64,000 nucleotides of DNA, taken from positions 1,302,001-1,366,000 of the forward strand of contig NZ_CP047420.1 in assembly GCF_009866655.1 (NCBI RefSeq). Reading direction: 5' to 3'. Below, piece after piece: positions 41,241 to 51,551 of the stretch. The notes below the pieces were generated by a model. That model had not been told where the DNA came from. It saw only the letters and a list, made by a program, of their open reading frames with translations, and ran no database searches. Origin of the DNA: Rathayibacter sp. VKM Ac-2804. GTDB taxonomy: Bacteria; Actinomycetota; Actinomycetes; Actinomycetales; Microbacteriaceae. Position numbers and translations under genes: made by a program. Position 1 is the first letter of the stretch. Every line of letters begins with the position of its first letter.

Positions 41241-44122
41241 TCACCAGCCCGTCGTCAGCACCTCGTCGAGCTGGTCCGCGAAGAAGTCGGCGCTCTCGAC
41301 GGTGAAGCAGAGCGGCGGCTTGATCTTCAGCACGCACTGGCGATCGGAGGTGGGCTGCACGATCACGCCGCGCTCGCGGAGCCGCTCGCAGATCGCGCGC
41401 GTCTGGGCGGTCGCCGGCTCGAGCGACACCCGGTCGCGGACCAGCTCGAGGCCGAGGTACAGCCCGCTGCCGTGCACGGCGCCGATCAGCGGGTGGCGCT
41501 CGGCGAGCTCCTCGAGTCGGCGGCGGAGGTGCGCGCCGGTGGTCCGCGCGTTCTCCTGCAGCCGCTCGCCGGCGAGCACGTCCAGCACCGTCGTCCCCAC
41601 GACGGAGCTGACCGGGCTGCCGCCCGCCGAGGAGAAGAACGAGCCCTGCGAGCGGTAGCGGTCGGCGATCTCCCGGGTGGTCACGACCGCGCCGAGCGGG
41701 TGTCCGTTGCCCATCGCCTTCGCGACGGCGACGACGTCGGGCACGACGCCCTGCTGCTCGAAGCCCCAGAACCACTCGCCGAGCCGGCCGTAGCCGACCT
41801 GCACCTCGTCGGCGATGCAGAGGCCGCCGTGGGCGCGGACGGCCGGGTAGACGGCGGCGAGGTAGCCGTCGGGCAGCGGGATGCCTCCGGCGTTGCCGTA
41901 GAAGGTCTCGGCGATGAAGCCGCCCGGGGGAGTGCCGGCCGCGGCCAGCTCCTCGATCCGGGCGACCGCCTCGGGCGCGTAGCGGTGCGCCTCGGCCCCG
42001 CGGTGCGTGCCGCGGTAGCTGTTGGGGGCGTCCAGAGTGTGGACCCAGGCGGGCCGCGTCGCGAGCGCGTCGGGGTTGTCGGCGACGGAGGTGGAGACCG
42101 CATCCGACAGGCCCGACCAGCCGTGATACGCCTCGCGCACCGCCAGCACGTCGTCGCGGCCCGACCAGGCGCGGGCGATCCGCAGCGCGAGATCGGCCGC
42201 CTCCGTGCCGCTGTTGACGAGCAGCACGGTGTCGAGCCCCTCCGGCAGCAGGGCCGCCAGCCGCTCGCAGAACGCGCCGATCGCGGGGTAGGAGAAGCGC
42301 GAGTTGGTGTTGAGCAGCCGCCACTGCCGCTCGACGCGCTCGACGAGCAGCGGGTGCGCGTGGCCGATCGAGGTCACGTTGTTGAGCACATCGAGGTGCA
42401 CGCGGCCGGAGTCGTCGACGAGGTGCTCGCGCCAGCCGCGCAGCATCGTGGGCGGGTCCTCGAAGTAGTGCTCCTGGGCCTCGGCCAGGTGCGCGAGCCG
42501 CCGCTCGAGCACCTCGGGGTCCGGGCGCGGGGCGGGGAGGGCGCGCCCCAGGAGCAGCGGAGTCGGGTCGAGGAGGACGTCGAGCCAGGCGTCGGCCCAG
42601 CGCGCGCGCGCGAACGGCGGCAGGTCGGCCGCGTCGAGCAGGCGCGGCGCGGCCTGGGCGCGCAGGAGTCCGCGGGCGGTGCCGAGCGGGTCGCCCGCGG
42701 TGACCCGGGTGCCGGGCGCGGGCGGCTCGTCGACGCCGTCGAGACGCAGCCGGACGCCGTCGGCGAGCAGCGTGACTCCTCCAGGGACGCCGCCGCCCAC
42801 CTCCGCGTCGAACGGGGCGCTCAGGGAGGTCCGCGCGGCGAGGTGGACCTCCACGACCAGCGCGGTCGTCTCGGGCTCGTGCGCGGTGTGCGGGCGGCCG
42901 CGGGTCAGGCGGCGCTCGCCGTAGCGCAGCACCGCGCCCCGGCGCCGCCCGCGAGCGCCGCGCGGGCGAGGGCGGGCTCGGCGTCGTCGTCGAGCCAGCG
43001 GCCGGCGTCGAGCGCCGGGCTCTCGGGCGAGAGGTCGACGACGACGGCGTCGAGGCCGCCGAGCACGGGGGCCGCGGCGGGCAGGGCGGCCGGTGCGCTC
43101 GGCCGGCCGAGGGCGCGCCGGACCAGCGCCTGGAGCACCGGCAGCGGCGCGGCGGTCGCCCGGTCGAGGATCAGGCGCTCGTGCTCGAGGTTCTCGCGGG
43201 CGTAGTCGTTGCCCGGGTCGCCGGCCAGGACGTCGTGGGCGCTGACGACGAGCACCGCCGCGCGGAGCACCACCAGCGGCCAGAGCGCCTCGACCTCGGC
43301 CTCGGCGAGCGGGCGCACGGCGTCGTAGGCGGTGGCGGCGCGGAGCACCGTGGCCGCGTCGGCGTCCGCGTGGTGCAGGAGCGAGGACAGCGTGATCGCG
43401 AGCTCGCCGACCGCCCAGCCCGCGCCGAGATCGCCGAAGTCGATGACGCCGTCGGGGAGGACACCCGCGTCCACCACCACGTTGTCGTCGGTGAGGTCGC
43501 CGTGCACGAGCTGCACCGGGAGCGCGGCGGCGAGCGGATCGACGACCGCCAGCGCCGCACCGACGGCCGTCCGGATCGCCCGCGCCGAGCGACGGGGCAC
43601 CCGGCCGATCAACGCGTCGACGACCCTGCCCGCCCGGCGCAGGTCCCACTGGTCCGTGTCCTCGAGGCCGTCGAGCGGCTGCTCGGCGAGCGCGACGTCG
43701 ACGCGGGCGGCGAGGTCGCCCATCGCCCGGACGACGGCGGGGGAGAGGTAGCCGGAGCCGGAGAGGGTCCGGCCGGGGACGAAGTCGAGGACCCGCGCGA
43801 CGGCGGTCGTGCCGCCGAGGTCGAACTCGTGCAGGGTGCGGCCCTTGCGGTCCGGCCGGACGCGCGGGAGCCGGACGCCCTCGAGCCGGTCCGCCAGGCG
43901 GGCGACGGCCTCCGTCTGCGCCTCGATCCGCCCGATCGGTGTCGCGGGGTTCGCGATCTTGAGCAGCAGCCGCTCGTCGCCGCTGTCGACGAGGACGTTG
44001 CGGTCCTGATTGCTGCCCAGCTCGCGCAGCGCGCCGTGCAGCCCGTAGCGCTCGCGCAGCAGTGCGGCCGCGACCTCGTGGTCGAGCGCGGGCGGGGGCG
44101 GCGGTGCGGCGTCGGACGGCAT
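41241..44122 (-). pseudogene. Kinase-M23-class III aminotransferase fusion, frameshifted
   Basis: Two overlapping frames together make one known ~960-residue architecture. 44122-42905 encodes an APH-type kinase domain (HGDLTDDN, VIDFGDLG). The second frame, from about 42950 to 41241, encodes an M23/lipoyl-like segment (APFDAEVGG...GTRVTAGDPLG) and a class III aminotransferase with ADEVQVGYGRLGEWFWGFE and PLP lysine in VAVAKAMGNGHPLG. The frames cross at a CCCC run (42937-42940), where one extra C would restore AGGAVLRYGERRLTRG. Either the gene is broken, or it is a sequencing error or programmed slip. Kinase plus phospho-lyase-type domain suggests an amino-alcohol substrate (inference). ATG 44161 is an alternative start. 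Confidence 0.8.
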
Positions 44123-44206
44123 GGCGAGGGTCCTGTCGAGCGGGGGATCGGGTGCATCCATGATCGCGCGTCGTCGCGGCGCCGCGTGTCCCGTCGGCCG
44201 CCGCTG

Positions 44207-44334
44207 CATGCTGGTCGAGGAGCCCCGGAGGGACGTATGGAGACCTGCCGTCCTCAGCAGTGCGGGCAAGCAAACCGGCTTCCGGCGATGGTGGATCTCG
44301 ATACGCCCGCTGCGCGAGCTACTCGATCAGCATG
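44207..44334. repeat. Palindromic repeat unit A1
   Basis: The 128-nt unit starts CATGCTGGTCGAG and ends CTCGATCAGCATG. Its two halves are imperfect inverted repeats around a variable core (GTCCTCAGCAG...). It is the first of four units between the aminotransferase and monooxygenase genes; related units recur at 51.3-51.55 kb. Confidence 0.85.
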
Positions 44335-44358
44335 CACTCCCTGCGGAGGACGCTCTCT

Positions 44359-44487
44359 GCGTGCTGGTCGAGGAGCCCCGCAGGGCGTATCGAGACCTGC
44401 CGTCCTCAGCAGGGTGGGTCTGCAGACTCGGCTTCTGCCGCTGGGGGATCTCGATGCGCCCGCCTCGCGGGCCACTCGATCAGCATG
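44359..44487. repeat. Palindromic repeat unit A2
   Basis: Same family as unit A1: GTGCTGGTCGAGGAGCCCC at the left and CACTCGATCAGCATG at the right, with the core CTGCAGACTCGG, which is also seen in the 51.4 kb copy. Confidence 0.8.
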
Positions 44488-44633
44488 ACTGCGCGAACGG
44501 ACCCGCAACGGGCCCCGCACCCGGAGCAGCGCCCCGCCCGCGTCCAGTCGGAAGGGAGGACGCGCGCGAGTGGACCCGGACAGGGCCCTGGAGCTCCGCT
44601 GGGCACCGCCGCGCGTCCAGTCGGCCGCCGCTG

Positions 44634-44762
44634 CATGCTGGTCGAGGAGCCCCGCGGGGGCGCATCGAGACCGGCCGTCCTCAGCAGGGCGGGACTGCAG
44701 ATCCCTCTTCTGGCGGTGGTGGATCTCGATACGCCCGCTGCGCGAGCTACTCGATCAGCATG
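44634..44762. repeat. Palindromic repeat unit A3
   Basis: 129 nt, CATGCTGGTCGAG to CTCGATCAGCATG. The ~20 nt before it (GTCGGCCGCCGCTGCATG) also repeat the sequence preceding unit A1, so the duplicated block is larger than the palindrome. Confidence 0.85.
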
Positions 44763-44810
44763 ATCCCGCGGGCGATCCTGCGAAGGGCCGAGTCCAGGGG
44801 CTCACCCGTG

Positions 44811-44900
44811 CATGGTGGTCGAGTAGGCCCGGAGGGGCGTATCGAGACCCGCAGTCCTCAGCAGAGGGCCGCCCGCTCCGCGGATTGCTCGATCAGCATG
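44811..44900. repeat. Palindromic repeat unit A4, truncated
   Basis: About 90 nt. The left end is CATGGTGGTCGAGTAGG and the right end GCTCGATCAGCATG; the core is shorter than in A1-A3. It ends one nt before the stop codon of the monooxygenase gene, so it also forms that gene's 3' end. Confidence 0.75.
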
Positions 44901-44901
44901 G

Positions 44902-46356
44902 TCAGTGCGCGTAGGCCGACGGGTCGAAGCGGCCGAGCTCCTCGCGGAAGGCGAAGGCGAAGTCGGGCCAGAGCAGGGTGAGGCGGTGGGAGGCGGCGTC
45001 GACGTACCAGCTCTCGCAGCCGCCGTTCGTCCAGACGGTGTCGGCGCTGAGCGCGTCGAGGCGGGCGAGGGAGGCGGCCTCGGCCTCGGCGGTGACCTCC
45101 AGGACGTCGACCCCGGCGCTCGAGCGGTGCTCGAGCGCGGCGAGGACGTAGTCGATCTGCGACTCGATCATGTGCACGGCGGAGTTGTGGCCGAGGCTCG
45201 CGTTCGGCCCGTTGATCACGAAGAGGTTCGGGAAGCCGTGCACGGCGGTCGAGTCGTAGGCCGACATCCCGTCGCCCCAGCGGTCGGCCAGCAGCTCGCC
45301 GCCGCGGCCTCGGATCCGGCGGGCGAACGGCGGGCGGGTCGCGAGGAAGCCGGTCGCGAGGATCAGCGCGTCGATCTCGTGCGGGACGCCGCCGTCGCCG
45401 ATCGCCGCCGAGCCCTCGACCCGGCGCAGCGGGCCCGGCACGACCTGCACGTGCGGCTGCGCGAGCGCGGGGTAGTAGTCGTCCGAGAGCAGCACCCGCT
45501 TGCAGCCGATCTCGTAGTCCGGCGTGAGCACGGCGCGCAGCTCCGGGTCGGCGACCTGCGCGGCGAGGTGGCCGAGCGCCTCCGCCCGCAGCCGGTCGAT
45601 GGCCTCGGGCACGCCGACCCGGCCGGCGAAGCCGAGCTCCGCGCGCCAGAACAGCTCGGAGCGCAGCCGCTCGACGGCGCCCGGAGCGCGGGCGAGCGCC
45701 CGGCGCTCCGCAGGCGGGTAGGCGCGGTTCCGGCGCGGGACGACGTACGGCGCCGAGCGCTGGAAGAGCACGACCTCGGCGGCGCGCTCGGCGAGGTGCG
45801 GCAGGATCTGCACCGCGGAGGCGCCCGAGCCGACGATGCCGACCCGCGCTCCGTCGAGGTCGACGTCGTCGCGCCAGCGGGCGGAGTGGAAGACAGGCCC
45901 GGCGAAGCCGTCCAGCCCCGGGACGTCGGGCAGTCGCGGCTCCGACAGCCGCCCGGCGCAGACCACGAGGACGGCCGCGTCGAAGTCCCCCCGCGAGGTG
46001 CGGACGCGCCAGCGACCGGCGAGCTCGTCGAAGGTCATCTCGAGCACGTCGGTGCCGAGATGCAGCTGCGGCGCGAGCCGCTCGCGCTCGACGACCCGCT
46101 CGAGATAGGCCTGGATCTCGGCGCCCGGTGCGTAGAAGGCCGACCAGTCGGGCTCGGGCGCGAACGAGTACGAGTAGAGGTGCGAGGGGATGTCGCAGGA
46201 GACGTTCGGATAGCGGTTGTCGCGCCAGGTGCCGCCGACGCGCTCGGCCCGCTCGAGCACCGCGAAGGAGACGCCGCCGCGGCGGGCGAGGCGCGCCGCC
46301 GCTCCGATGCCCGCGAAGCCCGCGCCGACCACGACGACGTCGACGGAGGTCGCCAT
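44902..46356 (-). CDS. BVMO-like FAD-dependent monooxygenase
   Basis: A 484-residue flavoprotein. It has an N-terminal FAD-binding GAGFAGIGAA, then GGTWRDNRYPNVSCDIPSHLYSYSF, a Baeyer-Villiger-type fingerprint (FAGPVFHSARW), the NADPH-binding GSGASAVQI, and ATGFLATRPP. It should oxidise a ketone or similar substrate with NADPH and O2 in the cytoplasm. Its ATG overlaps the stop of the hydrolase gene, so it is last in the fbiC-hydrolase-monooxygenase operon. Confidence 0.88.
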   Translation of the reverse strand: MATSVDVVVVGAGFAGIGAAARLARRGGVSFAVLERAERVGGTWRDNRYPNVSCDIPSHLYSYSFAPEPDWSAFYAPGAEIQAYLERVVERERLAPQLHLGTDVLEMTFDELAGRWRVRTSRGDFDAAVLVVCAGRLSEPRLPDVPGLDGFAGPVFHSARWRDDVDLDGARVGIVGSGASAVQILPHLAERAAEVVLFQRSAPYVVPRRNRAYPPAERRALARAPGAVERLRSELFWRAELGFAGRVGVPEAIDRLRAEALGHLAAQVADPELRAVLTPDYEIGCKRVLLSDDYYPALAQPHVQVVPGPLRRVEGSAAIGDGGVPHEIDALILATGFLATRPPFARRIRGRGGELLADRWGDGMSAYDSTAVHGFPNLFVINGPNASLGHNSAVHMIESQIDYVLAALEHRSSAGVDVLEVTAEAEAASLARLDALSADTVWTNGGCESWYVDAASHRLTLLWPDFAFAFREELGRFDPSAYAH

Positions 46357-47183
46357 CAGACGATCGTCCGGGGGAGCGTCGACCCGGCCGGGTCGCGGTG
46401 CGGGTCGGCGATGAAGCGCTCGACGAGCGCGAGCAGCTCGGCCGACCGCTCGGCCAGCACGCAGTGGCCCGCGTCGATCACGGCGTAGCGGGCGTCGTCG
46501 ATCGCCCCGAGCAGCGCCTCCGCCCCCTCGACGCCGACGACGGCGTCGGCGGTGCAGCCGACGACCAGCGCGGGGACGCGCAGGCGGGCCGCGGCCTCGG
46601 TCGCGTCGGCGCGGGCGGCCGCGGTGAGGAGCGCGGCGGTCGCGGCGTCGGCGGCCAGGGGAGTCTCGCGCCCGGGTCCGAGGTCGGCGAGCGTGCGGAC
46701 GCCGATCACGCGCGCCAGGTCCGCGCGGGCGTCGGGGAGGTCGGCCAGCGACTCCCACAGCCGGGCGACCGCGACCAGGCGCTCGGTGGGGTGCAGCCAG
46801 CCGGCGGCCAGCACCAGGGCGCCCACCCGCGGATCCGCCTCGGCGGCGGTGATCGCGGCCCAGGCGCCGAGGGAGACGCCGACGACGACCGCCCGCTCGG
46901 CGCCGAGCCGGTCGAGCGCGGCGGAGACGGCGCGAGGCGCGTCGCGCAGCGGATCCCGCAGGTCGGCGAGCTCGACCGCCGCCACCCGGTGCCGGCGAGC
47001 GAGCATCGGCAGCAGCAGCGCCCCGTCGGCCCGGGCACCGCGCCCTGGCCCGGTCGCGAGCAGGACGACGTCCGTCGCCGGCTCACCACCGGAGTAGAGG
47101 CGGACCGTGTCGTCGCCCACCGTCAGCGAGGACTCCTGGATCAGCGCGGCCTGCCGCTCGAGGTACGCCGACGACCGCGTCAC
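46356..47183 (-). CDS. Alpha/beta hydrolase
   Basis: A 275-residue protein with the nucleophile elbow GVSLGA, an oxyanion-side VVLLATGPGRGARADGA and a C-terminal catalytic-type DAGHCVL. GTG start overlapping the fbiC stop, and stop overlapping the monooxygenase start. Pairing with a Baeyer-Villiger-like enzyme suggests it hydrolyses the ester product (inference). Confidence 0.85.
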   Translation of the reverse strand: MTRSSAYLERQAALIQESSLTVGDDTVRLYSGGEPATDVVLLATGPGRGARADGALLLPMLARRHRVAAVELADLRDPLRDAPRAVSAALDRLGAERAVVVGVSLGAWAAITAAEADPRVGALVLAAGWLHPTERLVAVARLWESLADLPDARADLARVIGVRTLADLGPGRETPLAADAATAALLTAAARADATEAAARLRVPALVVGCTADAVVGVEGAEALLGAIDDARYAVIDAGHCVLAERSAELLALVERFIADPHRDPAGSTLPRTIV

Positions 47184-49564
47184 GAGACGCGGCCGGCCTC
47201 GCGCACCGGGAAGCGCAGCCGGCGGGTCGCGGTGCTGCCGGGCGCCGGCACCGTCATCGCGCGCTCGGCGGCGACGTGTCCGTAGTCGGTGGTGCGCTGG
47301 CGCCAGGGCCGGCCGATCTCGCCGGTGAGGCGCGCGATGGTCGCGATGTCGAGCGAGCGGTGCGCCTCGGCGCCCGACTCCGGACTCATCGCGCCGTCGA
47401 GCAGCAGCCCGCCGAGGTCGTCCGCGCCGCCGCGCAGCAGCTCCTGCGAGAGCTGCAGTCCGAGCTTCGTCCAGGCCGTCTGCACGTGGTCGATCCGCCC
47501 GTGCAGCAGCAGCCGCGCCACGGCGTGCACCGCGCGCGTCTCACGCCGGGTCGGCCCGCCGCGGGTCTGCGCGACGACCGTCGCCGGCGCCTCGGCCGGC
47601 ACGAACGGCATCGCGATGAACTCGGTGAAACCGCCCGTCTCGTCCTGGATCGCGGCCAGCGCACGGAGGTGGTCGATCTGCTGCTGCGGCGTCTCGACGT
47701 GCCCGTAGACCATGGTCGCGGTCGAGCGCAGGCCGCCGCGGTGCGCGGTCGTCACCGACTCCCGCCACTCGGCGACGCTCGGGTCCGCGCCCTCGCTGAG
47801 GAGCGCGCGCACCCGGTCGTCGAGGATCCGCGCCGCGGTCCCCGGAACGGAGTCGACGCCCGCCTCGCGCAGTGCGGCCAGCATCTCGGCGGGGGTGCGC
47901 CCGGTGCTCACGGCCGCGTCGAGGATCTCGCCCGGCCGGAACGCATGCAGGTGCAGCGTGGGGTGCCGCGCGTGCAGGGTGCGCACGATCAGCAGATGGT
48001 CCTCGCCCGGGGTCGCGAGCGGTCCCTGGAGGCACAGCTCGGTGGCGCCGAGCGCGACGGCCTCGTCGGCGAGCTGCTCCAGGGTCTCGACGGTGAGCCC
48101 GCCGGCGCCCCAGAGCGCGGTGTCGATGTTGCGGTTCGCCACCACGGTGACGGTGTCGCCCACGGCCGAGCGGCGGATGTCGTCGGCGAGGGCGGCCAGC
48201 GCGTCGAGGTCGTCGCCGTCGGCCGCGAGCAGGGCCAGGTAGTCGGCGTCGTCGAGGCCGGCCGGCTCGGCGGCGGCGCGCTCGAGGACGGCGGCGAGGG
48301 TCGGGGCCGCCGGGCGCGGGGCGGGCTCGAGCTCCTCCCGGTACGGGCGCGCCACGATCGGCGCGGACTCGTCGGCCAGCCACGACTCCCGATCGGCGAG
48401 CGCGAGCACGTACGGCGCGACCCGCGGGTCGATCCAGGTCTCCGCGTCGCTCAGGTACCGCGGGTGGGCGGTGAGGCGCTCGTGCAGCCGGTAGCCGGAG
48501 TCGGCGGTCAGTCGCGCGAGGTCGTCGATGTTCGGCCACGGCCGCTCGGGGTTCACGTGGTCCGCGGTCAGCGGGCTCACCCCGCCCCAGTCGTCGATCC
48601 CGGCGCGGAGGAGGAGCCCGAGCTCCTGCTCGTCGGTGAGGTTCGGCGGCACCTGGATGGTCATGTCGGCGCCGAGGACGAGGCGGGCGACGGCGACGTT
48701 CGCGACGTACTCCTGCAGCTCGAGGTCGACCTCGTTCTGCATCGCGGTCCGCGGCTTGGCGCGGAAGTTCTGCACGATGCACTCCTGCACATGGCCCCAG
48801 AGCGCGTGCGAGTCGCGGATCGCGAACAGCGCGTCGGCTCGCTCCGCCGTGTTCTCGCCGATGCCGAGCAGCACGCCCGTGGTGAACGGGATCCGGCTGC
48901 GCCCGGCGTCGTCGAGCACCCGCAGCCGCAGCGCCGGATCCTTGTCGGGCGAGCCGTAGTGCACCCCGCCCTTCTCCGACCACAGCCGTTCGGCGGTCGT
49001 CTCGAGCATCATCCCCATCGAGGGCGCGACCGGGCGCAGGCGCTGCAGCTCGGCCCAGGACATCACACCGGGGTTGAGGTGCGTGACCATGCCGGTCTCG
49101 GTCATCACGAGCACGGCCATCGCCCGCACGTACTCCAGCGTCGACGCGTAGCCGTGCTCGGCGAGCCAGGCGCGGGCGACGGGCCAGCGGTCCTCCGGGC
49201 GGTCGCCGAGGGTGAACAGCGCCTCCTTGCAGCCGAGCGCGGCGCCGGCGCGGGCGACCTCGAGGATCTCCTCCGGCTCCATGAAGGTCGACTCGCGCTT
49301 GAGGGCGAGGCCGCCCGGCGTCTCGACGAACACGCAGTAGTGGCAGCGGTCGCGGCAGAGCTTGGTCAGCGGCACGAAGACCTTGCGGGAGTAGGTGATC
49401 ACTCCCGGCCGGCCGCGCCGGGCGAGCCCCTCGTCGCGCAGCCGCCCGGCCGCCAGCAGCACCGCGTCGAGGTCGTCCCCGCGCGCCTCGAGGAGCACCT
49501 CGGCGCTCGCGCGCGTGATCGGCTCGCCCTCGGCGAGGCGGGCGAGGAGGGTGGGCACGGTCAT
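47180..49564 (-). CDS. fbiC: FO synthase FbiC (CofG-CofH) lacking the CofH radical-SAM motif
   Basis: A 794-residue fusion. The N-terminal CofG half has an intact radical-SAM C70-x3-C74-x2-C77 (KLCRDRCHYC). The C-terminal CofH half has typical sequence downstream (GATELCLQG, HAFRPGEIL, DSVPGTAARILDD, YGHVETPQQQIDHL, GGADDLGG). However, where CofH normally has VCxxxCxFC after NRNI, it reads NRNIDTALWGAGGLTVETL (about 478-495), with no cysteine and roughly 20-30 residues missing. Known FbiC makes the deazaflavin FO from ribitylaminouracil and tyrosine and needs both clusters; the Mycobacterium protein is ~60 residues longer. fgd lies upstream. Confidence 0.9.
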   Translation of the reverse strand: MTVPTLLARLAEGEPITRASAEVLLEARGDDLDAVLLAAGRLRDEGLARRGRPGVITYSRKVFVPLTKLCRDRCHYCVFVETPGGLALKRESTFMEPEEILEVARAGAALGCKEALFTLGDRPEDRWPVARAWLAEHGYASTLEYVRAMAVLVMTETGMVTHLNPGVMSWAELQRLRPVAPSMGMMLETTAERLWSEKGGVHYGSPDKDPALRLRVLDDAGRSRIPFTTGVLLGIGENTAERADALFAIRDSHALWGHVQECIVQNFRAKPRTAMQNEVDLELQEYVANVAVARLVLGADMTIQVPPNLTDEQELGLLLRAGIDDWGGVSPLTADHVNPERPWPNIDDLARLTADSGYRLHERLTAHPRYLSDAETWIDPRVAPYVLALADRESWLADESAPIVARPYREELEPAPRPAAPTLAAVLERAAAEPAGLDDADYLALLAADGDDLDALAALADDIRRSAVGDTVTVVANRNIDTALWGAGGLTVETLEQLADEAVALGATELCLQGPLATPGEDHLLIVRTLHARHPTLHLHAFRPGEILDAAVSTGRTPAEMLAALREAGVDSVPGTAARILDDRVRALLSEGADPSVAEWRESVTTAHRGGLRSTATMVYGHVETPQQQIDHLRALAAIQDETGGFTEFIAMPFVPAEAPATVVAQTRGGPTRRETRAVHAVARLLLHGRIDHVQTAWTKLGLQLSQELLRGGADDLGGLLLDGAMSPESGAEAHRSLDIATIARLTGEIGRPWRQRTTDYGHVAAERAMTVPAPGSTATRRLRFPVREAGRVS

Positions 49565-49667: not shown

Positions 49668-50684
49668 TCAGAGGGCGCGCAGGCGCGGCGCGAGGTCGCG
49701 CTCGAACCCGTCGAAGAAGCGCTGCTGGTCGTCGCCCGGCGCGTGGAACACGAGGTGGTTGAAGCCGGCGTCGACGTAGGGCTTGATCTGGGCGACCGTC
49801 TCGTCCGGGTCCGAGCCGACGATCCAGCGCTTGGCGACCTGCTCGATCGGCAGCTCGTCGGCGGCGCGCTCCATGTCGACCGGGTCGGTCAGCGAGTGCT
49901 TCTGCTCGGGAGTGAGCGAGAGCGGCGCCCAGAAGCGCGTGTTCTCGAGCGCGAGCGCCGGGTCGGGGTCGTAGGAGAGCTTGATCTCGATCATCCGGTC
50001 GAGCGCGGCGGAGTCGCGCCCGCCCGCCGCGATGCCCTCCTCCACGGCGGGGAGCAGCTTCTCGGTGTAGAGCTCCATGCCCTTGCCGGAGGTGCAGATG
50101 AAGCCGTCGCCTGCGCGCCCGGCGTACTTCGCGACGACGGGTCCGCCCGCGGCGATGTAGACGGGGACGCCGTTCTCGGGCTTGTCGTAGATGGACGCCT
50201 CGTGGGTGGAGTAGTACTCGCCGTCGAAGGAGACGCGGTCGCCGGCCCAGAGGGCGCGCATGAGGCGCACGGCCTCGCGCAGGCGGGCGAAGCGCTCCTT
50301 GAAGTCGGGCCAGCTCTGCTCGCCCGCGCCCTGGTAGCCGGTGGCGACCTCGTTCAGCGCCTCGCCGGTGCCCACGCCGAGCATGATCCGGTCGGGGTAG
50401 AGCACGCCGAGCGTGCCGAACGCCTGCGCGATGACGGCGGGGTTGTAGCGGTAGTGCGGCGTCATCACCGAGGTGCCGAGCCGGATGGTCGAGGTGCGCT
50501 CGCCGGCCGCGGCGAGCCAGGCGAGCGAGAACGGCGCGTGGCCGCCGGTGTGGCGCCAAGGCTGGAAGTGGTCGGAGACCACGGCGCTCTCGAAGCCGTG
50601 CCGCTCGGCGCCGACGGCCAGCTCCACGAGCTCGCGCGCCCCGAACTGCTCCGCCGATGCCTTGTACCCGAGCGTGATCGTCAT
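49668..50684 (-). CDS. fgd: F420-dependent glucose-6-phosphate dehydrogenase
   Basis: A 338-residue luciferase-like monooxygenase-fold protein. It matches mycobacterial Fgd closely by motif: [26 protein letters not shown] (catalytic-type His39 and Trp43), [15 protein letters not shown] (Glu108), [27 protein letters not shown] and [18 protein letters not shown]. It oxidises glucose 6-phosphate and reduces F420. It is followed 103 nt later by fbiC on the same strand, which is consistent with an F420 locus. Confidence 0.94.
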
Positions 50685-51188: not shown

Positions 51189-51256
51189 GACGGCGCCTTC
51201 CTGTCGAGGAGGGCCCCAGTATCGACCCGCCGGCGATCTCGCTGCAACGGCCTCCC

Positions 51257-51393
51257 TCCTGCTGATCGAGTAGCCCGCGCAGAGGGCGTCCCCCTGCTGA
51301 TCGAGTAGTCCGCGCAGCGGGCGTGTCGAGATCCACGCGTCCAGCAGGGGCGGGTCTCGATACGCCGCCTTCGGCGGCTACTCGACCAGCATG
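51257..51393. repeat. Palindromic repeat unit B1 with duplicated left arm
   Basis: The left arm (CTGCTGATCGAGTAG..CGCGCAG) occurs twice, at 51257 and 51294, before a single right arm ending CTACTCGACCAGCATG at 51393. Same family as the 44.2-44.9 kb units. Confidence 0.8.
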
Positions 51394-51423
51394 AATGCCG
51401 CCACCTTCTGCTGATCGTCCCCG

Positions 51424-51551
51424 CATGCTGATCGAGTAGCCCGCGCAGCGGGCGTATCGAGATCCACCAGCGTCAGAGGCCGAGTCTGCAGACTCGCCCT
51501 GCTGATGCCGCGGGGCTCGACACGCCCCTGCGGGGCTGCTCGACCAGCATG
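51424..51551. repeat. Palindromic repeat unit B2
   Basis: 128 nt from CATGCTGATCGAGTAGCCC to GCTGCTCGACCAGCATG, with the GTCTGCAGACTCG core. The B cluster fills most of the 51.19-51.61 kb gap between the VOC and PfkB genes; nothing else is visible there. Confidence 0.85.

Follow-up and report, generated by a model that had tools for sequence, protein, structure and literature searches.

The window analyzed here is a 64,000-nucleotide stretch of Rathayibacter sp. VKM Ac-2804 (contig NZ_CP047420.1, positions 1,302,001 to 1,366,000). It encodes an FbiC protein whose CofH half has lost the loop that carries the [4Fe-4S] cluster in radical S-adenosylmethionine (SAM) enzymes. According to a 2021 review, the formation of FO, a deazaflavin, follows a mechanism that is universal among the F420 producers studied and uses two enzymes with SAM-radical domains (PMC8498797). 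CofH breaks tyrosine down to a p-hydroxybenzyl radical, this radical adds to ribityldiaminouracil, and CofG then cyclizes the product. In the window, the order on one strand is fgd, fbiC, an alpha/beta hydrolase gene and a gene for a Baeyer-Villiger-like flavin monooxygenase (BVMO). The last three are joined by stop/start overlaps, with the GTG start of the hydrolase overlapping the fbiC stop by 4 bases and the ATG of the BVMO overlapping the hydrolase stop (TGATG). A preliminary description of this DNA had reported the motif loss in CofH, an intact CRDRCHYC in CofG and an intact, adjacent fgd. All three observations stand, but the BVMO gene two open reading frames downstream of fbiC had been overlooked.

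The CofG half of the protein has the CxxxCxxC expected of an FO synthase. As a whole, FbiC reaches 995.8 bits against the CofGH equivalog NF006687, under the cut-off of 1018, and the shortfall of the CofH half against its own profile is given in Table 1. Alignment to relatives places the canonical stretch NRNINFTNVCYTGCRFC... opposite NRNIDTALWGAGG in the window's FbiC; the three cysteines of the radical SAM motif are absent, and the next helix is retained. The preliminary description put the gap at 20-30 residues. Alignment with L018, a same-family genome whose FbiC is canonical, revises this to 17, the span between NRN and the following shared Cys being 35 residues in the window's protein versus 52 in that of L018. 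The stretch at window residues 478-504, 27 residues long, measures 44-48 residues in 43 canonical CofH sequences and 21-45 residues, mostly 23-31, in 81 cluster-less ones. Because this loop is lost, the cluster-less CofH is predicted, from established radical SAM chemistry, to be unable to generate a 5'-deoxyadenosyl radical.

The barrel of the domain is retained. An AlphaFold2 model (predicted local distance difference test score, pLDDT, 90.8) has an intact barrel like that of the aminofutalosine synthase MqnE, and 70 of the 146 columns that are invariant in canonical CofH are retained in at least 80% of cluster-less sequences. The resemblance to canonical FbiC or CofG plus CofH (NF006687, TIGR03550, TIGR03551) thus extends to the cluster motif of the CofG half, to the CofH barrel and, in some genomes, to the F420 genes nearby; the differences are the missing cluster loop, the scores below curated cut-offs and the pairing with a BVMO. 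In addition, the QGG of canonical CofH is mostly QGP or QGA, LMEE..SR has become LLDG..P, and Arg543 is invariant. MqnE itself (PDB 6xi9, 6xig) is a radical SAM enzyme; the cluster-less CofH shares 26% identity with it and has no cluster loop.

Table 1. Features of the fbiC region, in window coordinates
Feature	Position	Strand	Basis
FbiC open reading frame, 794 residues	47180-49564	-	open reading frame list
CofG half of FbiC, residues 1-429	48278..49564	-	TIGR03550 473.6 bits, cut-off 213.35
Intact radical SAM motif CRDRCHYC of the CofG half, residues 70-77	49334..49357	-	sequence; C[RQ]DRCHYC in 118/120 homologues
Cluster-less CofH half, residues 430-794	47183..48277	-	TIGR03551 327.8 bits, under cut-off 374.1; AlphaFold2 model
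NRNIDTALWGAGG, residues 477-489, shortened stretch in place of the [4Fe-4S] loop	48098..48136	-	alignments
Arg543	47936..47938	-	Arg in 81/81 cluster-less CofH; Ser or Thr in 43/43 canonical CofH
Arg579	47828..47830	-	Arg in 66/81 cluster-less CofH; Glu in 43/43 canonical CofH
fgd, F420-dependent glucose-6-phosphate dehydrogenase, upstream of fbiC	49668..50684	-	TIGR03554 628 bits, cut-off 420
Alpha/beta hydrolase, GVSLG nucleophile elbow	46356..47183	-	PF12697; junction and GxSxG
Type I Baeyer-Villiger-like flavin monooxygenase (BVMO)	44902..46356	-	signature, nearest solved sequences, AlphaFold2 model and Foldseek
BVMO signature FxGxxxHxxxW (FAGPVFHSARW, residues 151-161)	45874..45906	-	F151, G153, H157, W161 invariant in 23 aligned proteins

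Spread of the cluster-less CofH and its pairing with a BVMO

The motif is missing in the same way in all 13 other same-genus loci (L002-L014) whose CofH half can be read, which means that its loss is no assembly artefact; in a 14th locus (L016), the contig ends before the motif position. A protein search with residues 425-790 gave 4501 matches, from 7997 scored candidates sharing the most words. The 120 best homologues include proteins of Rathayibacter, Agreia, Gryllotalpicola, Conyzicola, Cryobacterium, Amnibacterium, Nocardioides, Arthrobacter and Pseudarthrobacter. Exactly one CxxxCxxC, located in the CofG part, was found in 118 of these 120, and the short proteins P0025 and P0072 have none.

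Named genomes were then scanned with an alignment of nine cluster-less CofH halves, and the best 80 of 243 relatives were taken. These loci were picked by CofH similarity and not by their neighbors, their lineages are not independent, and they overlap a first comparison of 13 neighborhoods (L073, from Kineococcus siccus, is L061, and L141 comes from the genome of L072). None of the 80 matches has a CxxxCxxC within its first 130 residues. The preliminary description had framed the loss as that of a single strain; the state is common to 11 named actinobacterial families and 22 named genera among these loci, which also include unnamed bins and a contig binned as Acidobacteriaceae. The latter (L089), with its cluster-less CofH and BVMO, clusters in the tree with Microbacteriaceae and Promicromonospora and is probably mis-binned. 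A tree built from 81 cluster-less CofH, 43 canonical CofH and three MqnC/MqnE-like rows separates the cluster-less sequences from the others by a branch with support of 100 by the Shimodaira-Hasegawa-like approximate likelihood ratio test (SH-aLRT); all trees were built by a quick method with this branch support only.

A sample of 344 genomes drawn evenly from the class gives a second view of the distribution. CofH scores over cut-off in 225 of them, and 11 have only matches below it (E ≤1e-50). Ten of these 11 carry a motif-less CofH adjoining a BVMO, counting the window's own genome, whose fetched stretch is incomplete and whose motif state comes from the same-genus alignment; the eleventh, G343 (E 3e-83), lies outside the count. 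A plasmid search matched 73 records, all at less than 60% identity, and the annotated rows listed carry canonical names.

Wherever the cluster-less CofH is found in these loci, a BVMO accompanies it. In the first comparison, a BVMO adjoined the cluster-less CofH in 9/9 neighborhoods and canonical CofH in 0/4, and in two genomes it sat between separate genes for CofG and the cluster-less CofH. Among the best 80 of 243 loci, a BVMO lies downstream on the same strand in all 80, with a spacing of ≤200 bases in 65 and a 4-base overlap as the most frequent junction (22/80); gaps under -200 in L109, L132 and L135 are a product of open reading frame calling. Of the 14 same-genus loci with a CofH half, 13 likewise have the BVMO downstream, and in the remaining one (L007) the contig ends before its position. 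No BVMO was detected at E ≤1e-5 in the fetched flanks of 43 canonical, motif-bearing CofH loci, which comprise 38 from the class sample, four from relatives and one from Nocardia, with flanks of ~8 kb, or shorter where the contig is short (e.g. L208, L227 and L231).

The position of CofG is far less constant. Across the 80 loci, CofG shares one frame with the cluster-less CofH in 33, occupies a separate frame within the fetched DNA in 26 and is absent from the fetched DNA in 21 (L150, where CofG lies downstream, is not counted as fused). Since the order of the pair holds across all three arrangements, the pair behaves as a traveling unit while CofG moves. The evolutionary distances agree. For the 59 loci with all three genes, distance correlations are 0.88 for cluster-less CofH and BVMO, 0.73 for cluster-less CofH and CofG, and 0.68 for CofG and BVMO. 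The partial correlation of cluster-less CofH with BVMO given CofG is 0.77, a value reached in 0 of 999 permutations, and that of cluster-less CofH with CofG given BVMO is 0.37. Ninety-three linked BVMOs lie on one side of a branch (SH-aLRT 95) from ten counted as unlinked, among which the Hydrogenophaga protein P0201 was entered with its neighbors unseen. Script clustering of neighbors yielded no third strict partner; the next widest family, ABC transporter ATPase-like by eye, occurs at 25 loci at a median distance of 4.6 kb.

The window's BVMO has the sequence features of a type I enzyme, namely FxGxxxHxxxW and two GxGxxG/A (Rossmann) motifs; one relative (L062_7) as called is without the first of these, perhaps because of a late start. 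Its predicted model (pLDDT 90.5) has the class B flavin monooxygenase fold, and all 50 listed Foldseek rows are BVMOs (best E 1.1e-44). The solved sequences closest to it belong to steroid, cyclohexanone and phenylacetone monooxygenases, which the window's protein resembles in fold and motifs; it differs from them in its ~30% identity and in belonging to a clade of its own that is tied to the cluster-less CofH.

F420 genes and the fate of canonical CofH

The preliminary description had raised a separate CofH as one way to account for the missing motif. A search of the window's genome with TIGR03551 found no second CofH, only the cluster-less half and a 20-bit cross-match to its CofG half. Seven Pfam radical SAM matches are present in this genome, and no candidate substitute emerged from them, although each was not individually identified. 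In two Actinoplanes genomes, extra CofH-like matches proved to be MqnC/MqnE-like (motifs CVTACKFC and CSASCAYC; 28-29% identity) and were set aside. The window's genome also encodes FbiA, FbiB/CofE, FbiD and Fgd, all over curated cut-offs, and has thereby the gene complement of an F420 producer; the check for fbiA, fbiB and fbiD that the preliminary description had called for found all three. Its further suggestion that F420 is imported or absent becomes less likely, as CofG, FbiA, FbiB, FbiD and Fgd are all retained.

A similar picture emerges from 79 pair-bearing genomes (L101 was left out), several of which are bins or drafts of unknown completeness. CofG scores over cut-off in all 79 (39/39 and 40/40). 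Canonical CofH does so in five (5/39 and 0/40), all of them Nocardia, leaving 74 without it. In four other Nocardia (Nocardia miyunensis, N. jiangxiensis, N. macrotermitis and N. vaccinii), the CofG frame ends 7-48 residues past the CofG match and is not followed by a CofH, and the cluster-less CofH and BVMO are on a different contig from CofG; in N. transvalensis, a full canonical FbiC persists beside the pair. Read from their gene order, these arrangements look like the displacement of canonical CofH caught at several stages.

Other F420 genes are found close to the pair in several genera. Eight of the 80 loci have an FbiA over cut-off inside their fetched DNA, all eight FbiA neighbors passing the profile, and in two Nesterenkonia the overlap of FbiA with the BVMO stop is 4 bases. 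An Fgd over cut-off is close to the pair in L105 (Nocardioides), L148 (Amnibacterium) and L141 (a Microbacteriaceae isolate, whose Fgd neighbor is the same gene as that of L072). Six Fgd/LLM neighbors from the 80 loci or the genus were profiled; these three and L065 score over the Fgd cut-off, and the neighbors in L086 and L089 score under it. In Humibacter (L086), an FbiB/CofE over the CofE cut-off follows the BVMO on the opposite strand. A script-clustered FbiB-like family of 12 loci is not relied on, with three direct matches to its example and one member profiled (L086). Two same-genus genomes (G004 and G008) have fgd, FbiD, fbiC with the cluster-less half, hydrolase and BVMO consecutively, FbiD being over cut-off in G004 and marginally under in G008. 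Open reading frame calling at the G008 locus (L065) fuses FbiD and FbiC into one 973-residue frame; the two are separate genes in G004.

A proposed replacement of the CofH step

We propose that the cluster-less CofH and the BVMO together probably replace the CofH step of FO synthesis. Comparison of the loci and genomes supports this replacement well; the oxygen chemistry is inferred. The comparison also favors one option raised by the preliminary description, that the CofH domain has been repurposed, given a single clade tied to a flavin monooxygenase. The cluster-less CofH, keeping its TIM barrel without the [4Fe-4S] loop, would carry out the step with the dedicated BVMO encoded downstream. 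With O2 and NADPH, the BVMO would oxygenate a tyrosine metabolite of the form aryl-CH2-C(=O), most likely 4-hydroxyphenylpyruvate, inserting an oxygen atom between the C=O and the CH2 and so breaking the C-alpha/C-beta bond that CofH cleaves by radical. The product would be a 4-hydroxybenzyl ester, which amounts to a masked p-quinone methide. The cluster-less CofH would hold 5-amino-6-ribitylaminouracil, whose C5 would add to the quinone methide to give the normal CofG substrate. CofG, still a radical SAM enzyme, would close the ring to FO, and FbiD, FbiA and FbiB would complete F420. This exact course, from ester formation through the quinone methide to addition on the cluster-less CofH, is put forward tentatively and may well prove different in its details. 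For the broader statement that actinobacteria have an O2-dependent FO synthase, in which a BVMO and a cluster-stripped barrel replace radical SAM CofH ionically via a p-quinone methide and the two-radical mechanism is not universal, we would put the chances at slightly under even.

It is conceivable instead that CofG performs both radical reactions, with the cluster-less CofH merely holding substrates and the BVMO acting as an accessory that supplies a tyrosine derivative or removes a by-product. The CofG motif, intact in 118 of the 120 best homologues, and the retained CofH barrel with its 70/146 canonical-invariant columns would both fit such a division of labor, which we nonetheless consider unlikely, as in 47 of the 80 loci the cluster-less CofH is not in one frame with CofG yet always precedes the BVMO, and as its distances follow those of the BVMO more closely than those of CofG (partial correlations of 0.77 versus 0.37). 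We think it similarly improbable that FO or F420 is imported and that the pair, with CofG, makes something else. Some of the relatives that have FbiA and no FbiC match (9/60) may obtain FO otherwise, and five Nocardia retain both versions of CofH, but import sits poorly with a CofG in every one of the 79 pair-bearing genomes searched, with FbiA, FbiB or Fgd close to the pair in several genera and with the consecutive fgd, FbiD, fbiC, hydrolase and BVMO genes of two same-genus genomes.

The residues newly invariant in the cluster-less CofH, such as Arg543, make a different aryl donor conceivable, and with it a deazaflavin of altered aryl part that serves as a variant F420. That Fgd, FbiA, FbiB and FbiD of the window's genome exceed curated cut-offs for the ordinary cofactor argues against such a product, and we judge it a shade less probable again than import or a CofG that does both reactions. 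Least credible of all is that the cluster-less CofH is a decaying remnant or that its motif is missing through sequencing error. Within the genus it does evolve faster than CofG, with Nei-Gojobori (NG86) dN/dS values, rough ones in this GC-rich DNA, of 0.15-0.56 versus 0.07-0.37 over 12 comparisons; set against this are dN/dS below 1 for both halves in all 12, the same state in same-genus relatives, a single clade spread over 22 named genera and an Arg543 present in 81/81 sequences.

Several observations weigh against a replacement of CofH by the cluster-less CofH and BVMO. The faster evolution of the window's CofH half than of its CofG half is one. Five Nocardia hold canonical CofH alongside the pair, and class-sample genome G161 has both CofH kinds; in these the pair could serve another product. 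The broad BVMO family is common, occurring in 186 of the 344 class-sample genomes (E ≤1e-90), and therefore it is adjacency, not presence, that carries the signal. BVMOs near the linked clade occur with no cluster-less CofH nearby in G326 (L241) and G143 (L242); the fetched DNA of both holds no CofG either, and both genomes have a canonical FbiC. The substrate of the BVMO is proposed solely from chemistry and family resemblance. Finally, FbiA scores over cut-off in 9 of 60 relatives with no FbiC or CofH match (G020, G030, G035, G037, G040, G044, G046, G049 and G053), and no CofG or CofH lies near fbiA in the fetched DNA of G020, G030 and G035. FO or F420 may thus be obtainable without FbiC in this order, by FO salvage or another FO route.

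We found no report of a cluster-less CofH or of a BVMO in FO synthesis in the open-licence PubMed Central literature. The parts belong to known families; within the literature searched, neither their combination nor the predicted oxygen-dependent step is described. If FO is indeed made with a cluster-free CofH, the rule of two radical enzymes, as set out in PMC8498797, would be broken, and a radical SAM barrel would have been retained for non-radical chemistry with an outside oxygenase. The annotation of such genomes would also change, several database entries for these proteins being named CofG alone. According to a study of canonical FbiC in E. coli, FO yield was higher under limited oxygen (PMC11917521); given that effect, an oxygen-using synthase could suit aerobic FO production.

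Neighboring and flanking features

The alpha/beta hydrolase gene stands beside the BVMO only in Rathayibacter and a few other Microbacteriaceae among the loci compared. Agreia BVMOs, including P0184 (670 residues), have an alpha/beta-hydrolase-like stretch N-terminal to the BVMO, with a nucleophile elbow that looks degenerate by eye. Further along the window, a PRK06149-like kinase/aminotransferase gene occupies two overlapping frames on the minus strand (41241-42932 and 42905-44122). The same gene is a single 962-residue frame in a same-genus relative (L070_4), and the split in the window reflects a frameshift or sequence error. The operon region is flanked by intergenic repeats of ~40-130 bases at 44180-44870 and 51255-51510, with inverted copies on the far side; for example, 44401-44487 and 51424-51510 (87 nucleotides) are 87% complementary.

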